A DNA stretch of 64,000 bases, taken from the NCBI RefSeq assembly GCF_000012865.1, contig NC_007503.1:372001-436000 (forward strand), read 5' to 3'. Below the pieces are notes generated by a model. The model made no database searches, was not told where the DNA came from, and saw only the letters and a program-made list of their open reading frames with translations. Positions 29,564 through 34,238 of the stretch are shown here, in pieces; within the stretch, counting starts at the first letter, position 1, and every line of letters begins with the position of its first letter. The translations under genes were made by a program, and so were the position numbers. The DNA is from Carboxydothermus hydrogenoformans Z-2901. GTDB taxonomy: Bacteria > Bacillota > Z-2901 > Carboxydothermales > Carboxydothermaceae.

Positions 29564-30648
29564 CGGCGGTTATAGAAGAAAAATTTCCACGGAAATTGGC
29601 AATGGAGTGGGATAATCCCGGCTGGCAGATTTATTTTGAAAAAGAAGTACATAAGGTCTTACTGGCTTTGGATATCACCGCAGCTACCGTTGATTTTGCA
29701 TTAAACGAAAAGGTTGATTTAATAATTACTCACCATCCCCTCTTTTTTAAACCGCTTAAGTCCCTGACTTTTGAGCGAAAGGAAACTCTGCCCCTGTTAA
29801 AACTTCTGGAAAAGCAAATTTCGGTGTATGCCATTCACACCAATTTAGATGTGGCTTTCGGGGGAATAAACGATTATTTAGCAGAGCTTTTAGAACTTCA
29901 GGAAGTTAAGCCCCTGGGGGAGGAAATTTTTGAGAAACTTTATAAACTTTCCGTTTTTGTTCCGGAATCCCACTGGGAGACGGTTAGAGAAGCGATGGGA
30001 GCTGCAGGAGCGGGTTTTATCGGCAATTATTCTCACTGTACTTTTAACACCCGGGGTATTGGGACTTTTTTACCCCTTGAAGGTACAAATCCGTATATCG
30101 GTGCGGTGGGAAAGCTGGAAAGGGTAGAAGAAGTTAAGATCGAAACAATTGTTCCGGAAAGACTTTTAGCAAAAGTGGTAAAGGCTATGTTAAAAGTCCA
30201 TCCCTATGAAGAGGTGGCGTACGATATCTATCCCTTGGAGAACAAAAATTATCTGGGAGGAATGGGAAGAATCGGGTTAACCGGTAAAAAAAGCTTTAAA
30301 GAGTTTTTAGCTTTAGTGGCGGAGAAATTAGGGATAGAAAATTTAAGATACGGGGGTGATTTAAATTCGGTTCCGAAAAAAGTGGCGGTGGTAACGGGAG
30401 CCGGCGGTAGCTATTGGCCAAAAGCTAAGTTTGCGGGGGCGGATATTTTTCTAAGCGGGGATATAAAATACCACGAAGCGGTTTCAATGATAGAAGCCGG
30501 TTTAAATTTTATCGATGCCGGGCACTGGGAAACGGAAAGAATATTTACTGAACTTTTGCTTCCCCTTTTAAGAAAAATTGAAGGCTTAAGTATTGTTGTG
30601 GAGATGGGGGAGCCGGTATTTAAATTTTTTAAAAGCAGCAGGGGGTAA
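29542..30648 (+). CDS. Nif3-like dinuclear metal-centre protein (YqfO type)
   Basis: A 368-residue NIF3/DUF34 protein with the PII-like insertion seen in YqfO. Metal-binding segments: ITHHPLFFKPLK (about 66-77), HTNLD (about 98-102), and the C-terminal DIFLSGDIKYHEA and DAGHWETE. TTG 29542 follows AGGAGGTG inside trmK. The family is widespread; GTP cyclohydrolase and metal-chaperone roles have been proposed but function is unsettled. Confidence 0.9.
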   Translation: MAHPQEIAAVIEEKFPRKLAMEWDNPGWQIYFEKEVHKVLLALDITAATVDFALNEKVDLIITHHPLFFKPLKSLTFERKETLPLLKLLEKQISVYAIHTNLDVAFGGINDYLAELLELQEVKPLGEEIFEKLYKLSVFVPESHWETVREAMGAAGAGFIGNYSHCTFNTRGIGTFLPLEGTNPYIGAVGKLERVEEVKIETIVPERLLAKVVKAMLKVHPYEEVAYDIYPLENKNYLGGMGRIGLTGKKSFKEFLALVAEKLGIENLRYGGDLNSVPKKVAVVTGAGGSYWPKAKFAGADIFLSGDIKYHEAVSMIEAGLNFIDAGHWETERIFTELLLPLLRKIEGLSIVVEMGEPVFKFFKSSRG

Positions 30649-30652
30649 TATT

Positions 30653-31366
30653 TTGCAGTATATTAGGGAATTATATATGTTTATGCTTTTAGAAGAAGAA
30701 GAGCGGAAATTAGCAAATGATGAGCGGATATTGGTTAATCGGGAAAGTTTTAATATGGCCCGGAAAACCTGGGAAAGCACCCGAAAAATATTTTATGAAA
30801 TTAAAGACGAGTTAGCAAAAACGGAAGAAGAAATCAAGAAATTAGAAGAGGAATTACTGGAATTGACTGACAAAATAAATGAGTTTGAGCAAAAGCTTTA
30901 CCGGGAAGGTACAAATTTAAAGCAAATTGAACAGTATCAGTTTAAGCTTGAATTATTAAAAAACGAGAAATCCGATAAAGAAGAGCGGTTACTGGAAATT
31001 ATTGACCGGGAAGAAGAATTAAAAGAAGAATTGAAAAAACTTAAAGATAAACTCACCAAGGGTAAAGAACGGCTTTTGAAATGGCAGGAAGAGATAAAGC
31101 TGGCAGAAGAAGAATATCGAAGAAATTTAGAGGCTCTTCGGCAAAAGTTAGCGCGGGAGCAAGAAAAACTTAAAGAAAATCCCTATTATGCAAAATATAA
31201 GGAGTTAAAAGAAAAGTATTTAAATCCGGTAGCGGTGGTAGAGAAAGAAACGTGTTATGGGTGTTTTATGAGTTTACCCTTTGAACTGACCAAAAAATTA
31301 AAGCTCGGGCAGGGAGAAGGAAGTATTTGCCCAAATTGTAAACGTTTGTTATATTATCCCGAATAA
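30653..31366 (+). CDS. Coiled-coil zinc-ribbon protein (DUF164/CdsZ type)
   Basis: The 237-residue protein is a long charged coiled coil (about residues 10-190, heptad-rich E/K/L) ending in a four-cysteine zinc ribbon (CYGCFMSLP ... SICPNCKRLLYYPE, residues about 202-237). This matches the C4-type zinc-ribbon family often encoded next to Nif3 proteins. TTG 30653 follows GGGGGTAA; an earlier frame opening at 30593 lies inside the upstream gene. Function of the family is not established; a role with nucleic acids or secretion ATPases has been suggested. Confidence 0.82.
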   Translation: MQYIRELYMFMLLEEEERKLANDERILVNRESFNMARKTWESTRKIFYEIKDELAKTEEEIKKLEEELLELTDKINEFEQKLYREGTNLKQIEQYQFKLELLKNEKSDKEERLLEIIDREEELKEELKKLKDKLTKGKERLLKWQEEIKLAEEEYRRNLEALRQKLAREQEKLKENPYYAKYKELKEKYLNPVAVVEKETCYGCFMSLPFELTKKLKLGQGEGSICPNCKRLLYYPE

Positions 31367-31462
31367 TGAAAATTTACAGATAAATAAAACAAAAAACGAC
31401 GAAAAAATTAAGAAATATCAGGGTTTTTATGGATTTGAGGTCATAAAAATTTTTTATTATTA

Positions 31463-31571
31463 TTGCAATTTACGGAGATATTACTTTATAATGAAGGTAA
31501 CTTCCTCTCTATTTATCCTTCAAATTTTAAGGCTATAAGCCCTCTTGAATAGGGCTTATAGCCTTTTTTTT
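31463..31571 (+). other. Possible short transcript: promoter and strong terminator
   Basis: TTGCAA (31463-31468), 18-bp spacer and TATAAT (31487-31492) would start RNA near 31499. A strong terminator, GGCTATAAGCCCT (31531-31543) with AGGGCTTATAGCC (31551-31563) plus eight T, ends it at about 31571. The hairpin also lies at the 3' end of the convergent rnpB gene. The RNA would be only about 70 nt. The hairpin may simply serve the upstream operon. Confidence 0.45.
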
Positions 31572-31780
31572 CAAGCGAGTAAGCCTGTAAGCCGAGTTCT
31601 GTCGAGGATGACCATCTATCTGAGACCTCTGTCACCAGAGGCCTTAAGCGACCAACCCGGGGACAGAGCGGGCCACTCTATAGTCCCCCTATTTGGTCTT
31701 GCTCCGGATGGGGTTTGCCTAGCCGGACAGTTACCTGCCCGCTGGTGAGCTCTTACCTCACCTTTCCACCCTTACCCTAC

Positions 31781-32221
31781 TGGAAGTTGGAGGTTGGAAG
31801 TTAGAAATTAGAAAAAACCTTATTTCCAATTGGCATATAAGCGATTTATTTTTTTAGCAAGTAATTCATACTCCTTATAAAAATATTGGTAAGTGTTTTC
31901 ATCTAAATAATTTAAATCCTTAGCAAAGTCCAGTAATACTAACACTTCATTACAAGAGCCAAGGCTATTTAAAATAAAACTTTTAAAAGTTAAAATTGAA
32001 CGTTTACGACCAAAGCCTTCCGCAATATTTAAAGGAATTGAAATTACGGCTCTGCGAAATTGACTTGCAAGCTCGTACTGCTCATATTTGGGAAAAGTTG
32101 TTATGATTTTATATATTTCAAGAGCAAGATTATAAGAAGTTTGGTAAACTTCTAAATCTTTAAAGGAGTAAATCATTTAATTTCTCCTTTCCAACTTCTA
32201 ACCTCTCACCTCCAACTTCCA
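31781..32221 (-). other. Protein-coding intervening sequence inside rnpB
   Basis: This 441-nt insert has perfect 14-bp terminal inverted repeats, TGGAAGTTGGAGGT (31781-31794) and ACCTCCAACTTCCA (32208-32221), with further imperfect complementarity inward (TTGGAAGTTAGAAA against TTTCTCCTTTCCAACTTC). It encodes one S23-family protein. Intervening sequences of this type are known within 23S rRNA genes, where RNase III cuts them out and the rRNA stays in pieces. I know of no report of one in RNase P RNA, but could not search. Confidence 0.92.
31820..32176 (-). CDS. Four-helix-bundle protein of the 23S rRNA intervening-sequence (S23/IVP) family
   Basis: The 118-residue protein opens YSFKDLEVYQTSYNLALEIY and carries the family core SIPLNIAEGFGRK (about residues 48-60) and LGSCNEVLVLLDFAKDLNYL (about 73-92), matching S23/four-helix-bundle proteins. 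ATG 32176 is preceded by GGAAAGGAG, so it is probably translated from the interrupted RNA. Members elsewhere are encoded within 23S rRNA intervening sequences and their function is unknown; the bundle is thought to form pentamers. Here the host gene is rnpB instead. Confidence 0.9.
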   Translation of the reverse strand: MIYSFKDLEVYQTSYNLALEIYKIITTFPKYEQYELASQFRRAVISIPLNIAEGFGRKRSILTFKSFILNSLGSCNEVLVLLDFAKDLNYLDENTYQYFYKEYELLAKKINRLYANWK

Positions 32222-32372
32222 ATAAGGCGGTTTGTTTCTGTGGCACTTTCCTTGGAGTCGCCTCCACCGGGCGTTACCCGGCATCCTGCCCTATGGAGCT
32301 CGGACTTTCCTCAGGGATTTCTCCCCGCGGTCATCCGGCTTACTCGCTTTTATTCAGTTTTGCCACTAAATA

Positions 32373-32401
32373 ATTATAATTTTTTCCTGATACCTCTGCA
32401 A
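32373..32401 (-). promoter_or_regulatory. Promoter of rnpB
   Basis: On the minus strand TTGCAG (complement of 32396-32401), 17-bp spacer and TATAAT (complement of 32373-32378) lie about 25 bp upstream of the mature 5' end of the RNase P RNA. Confidence 0.7.
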
Positions 32402-32419
32402 GCAACAAATAATGGTATC

Positions 32420-32743
32420 TTACATTTCGGGTTCGATATAAACGGCAGTTCCTGTTGCAACTACCATGAGCATTGACTGCCCAACACTTTCATAGTCTAA
32501 ACTTATGCCAATTACGGCGTTTGCTCCAAGTCGTTTGGCTCTCTCACTCATCTCATTTAAAACTATATTTCTTGCTTCTTCCAGCTGTTGCTCATAAGCT
32601 CCCGACCGACCGCCAATAATATCGCTAATGGATGCAAGTAAATCCCGGATAAAGTTTGTTCCCATGATTGCTTCTCCGGTTACAATACCCAGATATTTTG
32701 TAACTTTAAAACCATCCAATCTTCCGCTTGTAGCTAAAAGCAT
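32420..32743 (-). CDS. YbjQ/UPF0145-family protein
   Basis: The 107-residue protein matches YbjQ: LGIVTGEAIMGTNFIRDLLA, GGRSGAYEQQLEEAR and AKRLGANAVIGISLDYE. The family forms pentameric beta-rich rings of unknown function and is sometimes called heavy-metal-binding. ATG 32743 follows GGGAGG. It lies just upstream of rnpB on the same strand, but rnpB has its own promoter overlapping the 3' end of this gene. Confidence 0.87.
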   Translation of the reverse strand: MLLATSGRLDGFKVTKYLGIVTGEAIMGTNFIRDLLASISDIIGGRSGAYEQQLEEARNIVLNEMSERAKRLGANAVIGISLDYESVGQSMLMVVATGTAVYIEPEM

Positions 32744-32827
32744 TAAAGGACACCTCCCGGGTATTTTTTTTTTATTTTAACAAAAAATAAGCTGTAATAA
32801 TAGGGAAAATAAGTTACCTTATTAGTG

Positions 32828-32844
32828 TGTCGAGTAATGTCGAA
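32828..32844 (+). promoter_or_regulatory. Tandem Spo0A-box-like repeats
   Basis: TGTCGAG (32828-32834) and TGTCGAA (32838-32844) are spaced exactly 10 bp start to start, like tandem 0A boxes (consensus TGTCGAA). They lie between the divergent ybjQ gene and the RNA region at 33.0 kb. Confidence 0.35.
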
Positions 32845-32922
32845 AAAACTCATTATTTGTAACCATTTCTTAACATTACCTTAATATATTAGTAACAATT
32901 ATCAATTATTATGAAAACGAAA

Positions 32923-32992
32923 GGACAAGTCGGGAGGACAAAAAGAGGTCCCCCCCTCCCCACTCCCAATCCCCTCCTCCCGATAAATGTCC
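32923..32992 (+). other. Hairpin with C-rich loop; G-quadruplex motif on the minus strand
   Basis: Outer stem GGACA (32923-32927) / TGTCC (32988-32992) and inner stem CGGGAGGA (32931-32938) / TCCTCCCG (32975-32982). The loop has C tracts of 7, 4, 3 and 4, so the complementary strand holds four G runs with 1-3-nt loops, a strong G4 motif in AT-rich DNA. As RNA, the UCCUCCC and CCCCUCCC stretches resemble C-rich loops of sRNAs that pair with ribosome-binding sites. Confidence 0.6.
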
Positions 32993-33005
32993 CTGAATTT
33001 AAAAA

Positions 33006-33307
33006 ACAGCTCCCGCTTTAGTTCTTGCAAGGGAACTTAGGCGGTATAAGCTAAGGTTTTAAAAGAACAGGAAGCTCTAATTTAAGATAACGATGGGTAG
33101 CGGTTAAGGCATATATGGAAGCAAATATTGAGCTTTTGATGCTGGCAGAAAAAGGGCAGCAAACAAGCAGGGTATGTCTGAAATCTAAAGAAAGGGTTTT
33201 AAAAGTTTTTAAAAAAACAAATAAGAGCTTTTGGAGGAAAAAGACAAGCAAAAAGCGGGGCTGTTCTTTAAATCCCTCCACCGGTGGCCGAAAAGCCACC
33301 TTTTTTT
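33006..33307 (+). ncRNA. Candidate structured non-coding RNA with its own terminator
   Basis: A long-range helix closes the element: ACAGCTCCCGCTTT (33006-33019) pairs with AAAGCGGGGCTGT (33252-33264), 13 bp with one bulged U. Inside, GTTCTT (33021-33026) pairs with AAGAAC (33063-33068) around AACTTAG / CTAAGGTT, and GAAGCTC pairs with GAGCTTT. A clear terminator follows: GGTGGC (33283-33288), CGAAAA, GCCACC (33295-33300) and seven T. Reading frames through it lack ribosome-binding sites. It matches no RNA family I recognise (not tmRNA, SRP RNA, T-box or a common riboswitch; 6S RNA cannot be excluded). The next gene has a separate promoter. Confidence 0.6.
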
Positions 33308-33330
33308 ATTATTTTTTTTAAATAAAGAAA

Positions 33331-33339
33331 TGGTATAAT
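33331..33339 (+). promoter_or_regulatory. Extended -10 promoter of the DMT transporter gene
   Basis: TGGTATAAT (33331-33339) is a perfect extended -10, located after the terminator at 33283-33307 and 27 bp before the GTG start, so the transporter gene is not under control of the upstream RNA. Confidence 0.65.
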
Positions 33340-33365
33340 TAATTCTAAAAACGGAGGTTTTGGGA

Positions 33366-34238
33366 GTGGGGGATAACGAACGAATAAAGGGATTGGTTTT
33401 GGCGATTTTGGCTACTTCTTTGTGGGGTATAAACGGTACCGTTACCCGCTACTTATTGATTAACAATTTAGATCCGGTGGTTTTGGTACAGATAAGACTT
33501 ACCGTAAGCGCTCTTTTGCTGTTTATTTTGCTTTTTATTTTAAAAATCAATGTGAAAATTAGTAGAGATGATATAATCTCCTTACTTATCTTAGGGATTT
33601 TTGGCTTATCGCTGGTGCAAATGACGTATTTTTATACCATAAGCTTGACTAATGTAGCAACAGCGGTCTTTTTACAGTATCTGTCACCGGTATTTGTAGC
33701 CCTTTACGGTGTCTTTTTTAAAGCAGAAGAAATTACCGGAAGCAAACTTACCGCTATTGGTATGTCGCTCTTAGGAAGTTTTCTGATAGTAACCCAGAAT
33801 GGTGAGATACAACTACCTTTTATGGGATTACTTTCGGGTTTGCTATCGGCTTTATCCCAAAGCTTTTATATTATTTACGGAAAAAAAGTTTTAAACCGCT
33901 TTAGTCCTATAACGGTATTGGCATACGGCTGGCTTTTTGGAGCAGTTTTTTGGTGGCTTTTAATTCCCCCAAACAAAGCTTTAATGCACCAGGTTTTTAC
34001 CTTAAGAGATGTTTTTGGAATATCGTATGTAATTATTTTTGCAACCGTTATTCCCTTTTTATTGTATTTTGAAAGCCTGAAGTATTTAAACTCCACTACC
34101 ATGAGTGTGGTAAGTCTGGTTGAACCGGTGGTAGCGGTAATAGTGGCTTATCTTGTTTTAGGGGAAAAGTTAACGCCACTTTCCACCCTTGGTGCTGTTT
34201 TAATTTTGTTTGCCATTTATAAAATTACCAGAAGTTAA
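33366..34238 (+). CDS. EamA/DMT-family transporter
   Basis: The 290-residue protein contains ten predicted membrane helices arranged as two EamA repeats (LWGINGTVTRYLL in the first; YESLKYLNSTTMSVVSLVEPV-like segment, split, in the second: FESLKYLNSTTMSVVSLV). It is a drug/metabolite-type exporter of unknown substrate. GTG 33366 is preceded by CGGAGG at a good distance; TTG 33360 is too close to it. Confidence 0.88.
   Translation: MGDNERIKGLVLAILATSLWGINGTVTRYLLINNLDPVVLVQIRLTVSALLLFILLFILKINVKISRDDIISLLILGIFGLSLVQMTYFYTISLTNVATAVFLQYLSPVFVALYGVFFKAEEITGSKLTAIGMSLLGSFLIVTQNGEIQLPFMGLLSGLLSALSQSFYIIYGKKVLNRFSPITVLAYGWLFGAVFWWLLIPPNKALMHQVFTLRDVFGISYVIIFATVIPFLLYFESLKYLNSTTMSVVSLVEPVVAVIVAYLVLGEKLTPLSTLGAVLILFAIYKITRS

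Follow-up and report, generated by a model that had tools for sequence, protein, structure and literature searches.

The RNase P RNA gene (rnpB) of Carboxydothermus hydrogenoformans Z-2901 lies on the minus strand of the window, by which we mean the whole 64,000-nucleotide stretch of DNA that was analysed. With cmscan, window positions 31572-32346 (-) were aligned end to end with covariance model RF00010 (model positions 1-367 of 367) at 294 bits (E 1.7e-96), against a gathering score of 100, and this full-length match together with the conserved core marked the gene product as a bacterial type A (class A) RNase P RNA. The initial annotation had claimed from the letters alone that the two halves of a type A RNase P RNA stand here in order on the minus strand; indeed, both were aligned by the model as one RNA. 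The sole long insertion in the alignment fell between model positions 136 and 137, in the loop of P12, which was recognised by its flanks ACAGAAA..ACCGC and GGUAAGGGUG. A second intact rnpB elsewhere in the genome had been named beforehand as evidence against a split gene, and the genome-wide RF00010 search returned a single match in the one contig (2,401,520 bp). The features of the locus are as follows.

31572 to 32349, minus strand: rnpB (type A RNase P RNA) including the intervening sequence; RF00010 match at 31572-32346, the only rnpB in the genome
32228 to 32346, minus strand: 5' portion of the RNase P RNA, from P1 to the start of P12 (cmscan; identical in C. islandicus)
32222 to 32227, minus strand: CCUUAU, 5' strand of the P12 base; the outer CC is conserved in rnpB and the inner UUAU may derive from the element
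31781 to 32221, minus strand: intervening sequence (IVS), 441 nt; 30% G+C (rnpB parts 58%, window 43%)
32208 to 32221, minus strand: left terminal inverted repeat, TGGAAGTTGGAGGT, the start of a heptamer-repeat arm that reaches about 32189
32184 to 32190, minus strand: AAAGGAG, Shine-Dalgarno-like, 7 nt upstream of the ATG (from sequence)
31820 to 32176, minus strand: 118-amino-acid four-helix-bundle IVS protein (PF05635/TIGR02436, S23p; from Pfam, NCBIfam and AlphaFold)
31781 to 31794, minus strand: right terminal inverted repeat, ACCTCCAACTTCCA; heptamer arm from about 31813
31775 to 31780, minus strand: GUAGGG, 3' strand of the P12 base
31572 to 31774, minus strand: 3' portion of the RNase P RNA, from J12/11 to the 3' end (cmscan; identical in C. 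islandicus)
31529 to 31565: GC-rich hairpin adjoining the 3' end of rnpB, scored as a terminator on the plus strand only

The 441-nt insert was found at 31781-32221, exactly where it had first been placed, and the proposal that its 14-bp terminal inverted repeat prolongs P12 was upheld: the repeats are perfect and, together with the flanking CCUUAU/GUAGGG, fold into 20 continuous base pairs, followed after a 2-nt internal loop by 17 base pairs more. The predicted fold of the insert plus flanks had an energy of -130.4 kcal/mol (z = -7.4), a stability reached by none of 100 shuffled sequences. The arms of the insert are built of imperfect heptamers (TGGAAGT TGGAGGT GAGAGGT TAGAAGT), and in the C. 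islandicus copy a lag of 7 scored best among lags of 4 to 12. The attribution of all six flanking pairs to the host stood only in part; CCUUAU/GUAGGG does fold continuously with the repeats, but only the outer two pairs, C-G and C-G, recur in a congener whose rnpB is uninterrupted (G002, described below). The inner UUAU/GUAG may instead have arrived with the element, since it is absent from G002 and closely resembles the ends of an IVS in the 23S rRNA gene of genome G059 (CTTACTGGAGG...CCTCCAGTAGGGG; also CTTACTGGAGG...CCTCCAGTAGGG). Part of the supposed host stem could thus belong to the element.

The view of the insert as an extension of P12 was likewise confirmed by the fold, but the insert is no mere spacer, as an intact, 118-codon open reading frame (ORF) in the same orientation as rnpB had been overlooked. 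Its product matched PF05635 at 114.6 bits (cut-off 33.8; E 3.1e-33) and TIGR02436 of NCBIfam with an E value of 3.2e-31, and its AlphaFold model was a confident four-helix bundle (pLDDT 91) for which the best solved structures were 2gsc (XCC0516; TM 0.87) and 2rld (S23 family). Avd, the accessory protein of diversity-generating retroelements, is a four-helix bundle like S23p and was recovered as a distant match (Foldseek TM 0.58, E 0.17), but at 24.7 bits in NCBIfam it fell below the family cut-off of 80. The same genome holds a second gene of the S23p family (G000:C1:2364042-2364368, locus L080), whose reading frame is broken by a TAA and around which no inverted repeats are evident.

The rnpB genes of other Carboxydothermus genomes, a comparison proposed at the outset, provided both an occupied and an empty site. 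Carboxydothermus islandicus (G001) carries the same element at the same P12 site, with 9 substitutions in the 441-nt insert (2%) and none in the rnpB parts. Within the insert ORF, 5 changes were synonymous and 2 were nonsynonymous (dN 0.007; dS 0.075), and the probability that no more than 2 of 7 changes would be nonsynonymous under uniform mutation was 0.004, indicating that the S23p ORF is under purifying selection. In G002, a third Carboxydothermus, rnpB is 339 nt long without interruption and is nearly identical to the interrupted gene outside P12, and no homologue of the insert protein was detected in this genome at E values up to 1e-6. Presence of the insert within the genus is therefore sporadic (in G000 and G001, with none in G002). 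Because the empty site of G002 keeps a P12 capped by a tetraloop (CCGGCGC-GAAG-CGCCGG), the IVS has taken the place of the P12 tip. An assembly artefact was rejected, as the same insert occurs in an independently sequenced species and analogous inserts occur in three other genomes.

Those three genomes belong to a second family, which emerged when the spans of rnpB matches were read in approximately 320 genomes of the phylum. The rnpB of G304 spans 773 nt, and its P12 is interrupted, at precisely the position used in the window, by an IVS whose S23p ORF is intact (CCGCCTTCTGGAGGTTGG ... CTAACCTCCAGAAGGTAAGG). That of G413 (767 nt) is likewise interrupted at this site by an IVS with an intact ORF, as is that of G412, where the locus is broken off by a contig end. 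Three of the five genomes of the family (G304, G412 and G413) carry the IVS, and in the other two, G387 and G411, the P12 hairpin is an ordinary one. The three proteins are 53-56% identical to the protein in the window, and G304 and G412 differ with a dN of 0.15 and a dS of about 2. The letters of the outer stem vary, yet the pairing is kept (UUAU/GUAG, UUCU/AGAA and UAAAA/UUUUA). Split partial RF00010 matches in G111, G217, G271 and G282 were also considered as inserts; they lay mostly at contig ends and were not counted.

Homologues of the insert protein were then placed by location. Among the phylum genomes, homologues with scores above about 109 bits all lie within a 23S rRNA gene or rnpB, and the 23S copies occupy helix 45 wherever the site could be read. 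The nearest homologues lie in 23S rRNA genes, that of G059 having 55% identity, with others in G057, G100, G082, G120 and G274, and the 23S-resident copies bear the same heptamer inverted repeats. Multiple copies within a genome were seen in G057, in which at least three rrn operons have an S23p-bearing 23S IVS (L116, L129 and L137), and in G100, in which at least two do (L115 and L130); one copy per genome has its ORF shifted out of frame by a single base. A search for viral carriers of the element found none.

All of the lower-scoring homologues tested were free-standing genes except one, a fragment in the 23S rRNA gene of G082, and some free-standing S23p genes also have inverted repeats. 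Another inverted motif, around ACGAAGCCCGTWTCG, flanks the free-standing S23p genes of Omnitrophota and Syntrophaceae (L046, L047 and L050), which suggests a second class of S23p-associated repeat. Genes of the S23p family also occur in arrays of three to four, about 1.3-2.8 kb apart (G304:C150:3987-8802, L186; G289:C1:31034-35439, L190). In the tree, the rnpB proteins grouped with all of the rRNA-resident proteins and apart from 9 of the 12 sampled free-standing ones (support 99/99); the other three, distant sequences recovered by a search of genome contigs, fell inside the rRNA/rnpB group. A single clade of all rnpB IVS proteins was not retained, as the best tree places them at two points within the mostly rRNA-resident group, though such a clade is not rejected (p-AU 0.37), so that there may have been one entry into rnpB or more.

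P12 without an ORF also varies widely in length in the phylum, from about 25 to 200 nt. The helix was read in about 79 distinct rnpB loci, a biased sample in which many had been picked for length, and purine-heptamer hairpins without an ORF were present in P12 in at least a dozen genomes from about eight families (G059, G017, G134, G058, G284, G307, G186, G049, G087, G153, G235, G076, G096 and G283). Loci with such hairpins include L021, L042, L087, L154, L210, L228, L234, L239, L241 and L204. The lag-7 score alone is no proof of a heptamer hairpin, since it was also raised in a few loci without the purine motif. Both forms coexist in G059, which has a full IVS in helix 45 of 23S rRNA and, in rnpB, a short P12 hairpin whose ends are the same (TACTGGAGGTT...CTAGTA). 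Most simply, elements would enter P12, shed the ORF and leave a hairpin behind; the reverse order, with the hairpin first and the ORF gained later, is also admissible. Heptamer repeats within rnpB are reportedly present in heterocystous cyanobacteria as well, as the STRR repeats described by Vioque in 1997. These resemble the P12 hairpins without an ORF and could be related to them; we know of no S23p ORF in them. In C. hydrogenoformans itself, heptamer motifs are also dispersed at other places in the genome. Heptamer inverted repeats without an ORF occur there in the 23S-5S spacer of two rrn operons (G000:C1:1893826-1893987 and 1392799-1392960; L070 and L071), and others, again without an ORF, lie beside or within a cluster of tRNA genes (G000:C1:278325-278753; L079).

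The closest known counterparts are the IVSs of 23S rRNA from Coxiella burnetii and Leptospira (helices 9, 25 and 45), in which a tetraloop is replaced by an extended stem that is cut by RNase III (PMC4990558). The likeness extends to size (428-444 nt in Coxiella versus 441 nt here), to the substitution of an extended stem for the tetraloop of a peripheral hairpin, to near-perfect terminal inverted repeats, and to heptamers beside a sense-strand S23p ORF in a sequence of low G+C content; the Coxiella IVS encodes S23p and has heptamer repeats beside its ORF (PMC4990558). The state of the ORF differs, being intact and under purifying selection in rnpB and decaying in Coxiella, where S23p is apparently not made in vivo (PMC4990558). 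The principal difference is the host: previously described IVSs sit in rRNA, and here the host is the RNase P RNA and the site is P12 of rnpB. The IVP insertions of CPR bacteria likewise place the same protein family within structural RNA genes, but that survey covers 16S and 23S rRNA genes only and does not mention RNase P (PMC11270868). As S23p-bearing IVSs were already known from 23S rRNA and, in CPR, from 16S rRNA (PMC4990558, PMC11270868), what is new here is the host RNA and its recurrent use. No earlier description of an IVS in rnpB was found in the literature searched, with most subscription journals lying outside its coverage. The tip of P12 also tolerates growth in the RNase P RNAs of archaea and eukaryotes, but the expansion segments there are noncoding, protein-binding helices, whereas the insert in rnpB is coding and looks mobile (PMC12974513).

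Together, the replacement of the P12 loop, the heptamers that prolong P12, the S23p ORF, and the conserved, single-copy rnpB identify the insert, on sequence grounds, as an IVS. The initial annotation had already likened it to those of 23S rRNA, a reading now strengthened by the S23p ORF, by kin in 23S rRNA with the same heptamers, by the empty site of the congener, and by the use of the same site in a second family. Moreover, since IVSs of the second family and at least a dozen genomes with hairpins lacking an ORF point to the same helix, P12, as judged from these genomes, is a recurrent landing site of IVSs.

In the mechanism that we propose, rnpB and the IVS would be transcribed as one precursor of about 775 nt, and RNase III would cut the long P12 duplex, as it does in 23S IVSs. 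The IVS RNA would be freed and then degraded or translated, and the two pieces of RNase P RNA would be held together by the P12 stub and the remaining fold, so that excision would likely yield a two-piece ribozyme. If left uncut, the IVS would be a harmless extension of P12. Either state could be tolerated, because P12 is peripheral and is absent from some natural RNase P RNAs (PMC8172020, PMC2858038). The element would be mobile among stable RNA genes, accepting hairpin tips that the host RNA need not keep continuous, and frequent loss of the ORF would leave P12 longer, by a heptamer hairpin, in many lineages. Taken as a whole, a 23S-type IVS in the tip of P12, with an S23p ORF, excision by RNase III, a two-piece RNase P and mobility, is the best explanation of the data, and we hold it with considerable confidence.

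Retention of the IVS in one mature molecule of about 775 nt, with a giant P12 and an ORF that is silent or translated from it, would suit the peripheral position of P12, the intact core alignment, the variable length of P12 in the phylum, and the expansions that the P12 tip often bears in archaea and eukaryotes (PMC12974513). Against this, a duplex of 20 plus 17 bp is an expected substrate of RNase III, and comparable 23S IVSs are cut (PMC4990558); we regard retention as unlikely, at perhaps one chance in a handful. Far less probable is a chance hit on rnpB by a MITE or other transposable element that bears inverted repeats but is unrelated to IVSs. Dispersed heptamer motifs and free-standing S23p genes with inverted repeats could be taken to favour such an element, but the highest-scoring homologues are confined to 23S rRNA genes and rnpB, the lower-scoring free-standing ones form, for the most part, a separate group, and the same site is used in a second family. 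In addition, there is no transposase in the insert, of which S23p is the only ORF, and no target-site duplication is evident at its junctions. Intervening sequences of structural RNAs are often introns, but a self-splicing intron that leaves a ligated, normal RNA is highly improbable, as positions 30500-33500 gave no match to group I or group II intron families at E values up to 1 and the insert contains no ORF for a homing endonuclease or reverse transcriptase. Finally, that an essential RNA gene with a 441-nt insertion is a decaying pseudogene, its activity supplied from elsewhere, has next to nothing to recommend it, given the single rnpB, the lack of any match over the cut-off to HARP (protein-only RNase P), rnpB parts that are identical in two species while the IVS diverged by 2%, and near-perfect conservation outside P12 relative to the uninterrupted congener.

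A broader reading can be built around the preferred one, that of a 23S-type IVS excised from P12, and to this we give roughly even odds of being correct. IVSs and S23p would be parasites of RNA genes beyond rRNA, and P12 of rnpB would be a second standing host site that was entered with an ORF at least once, and probably at least twice, with remnants lacking an ORF in many lineages. The host would live on a fragmented RNase P, decay of the elements would give rise to lineage-specific expansion segments of P12, and S23p, whose fold is Avd-like, may aid mobility at the RNA level.

For annotation, rnpB genes of about 770 nt exceed the 250-550 nt that one annotation tool gives as its range for rnpB (PMC7191817). 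More broadly, the finding adds the catalytic RNA of RNase P to the rRNAs as a host of IVSs, and it predicts that a cultivable thermophile has an RNase P ribozyme naturally made of two pieces. Since one family includes three rnpB genes with intact elements as well as empty members, and since the site in G002 is empty, natural before-and-after pairs exist, and the role of S23p, the movement of IVSs and the growth of lineage-specific helices in RNase P RNA become testable.
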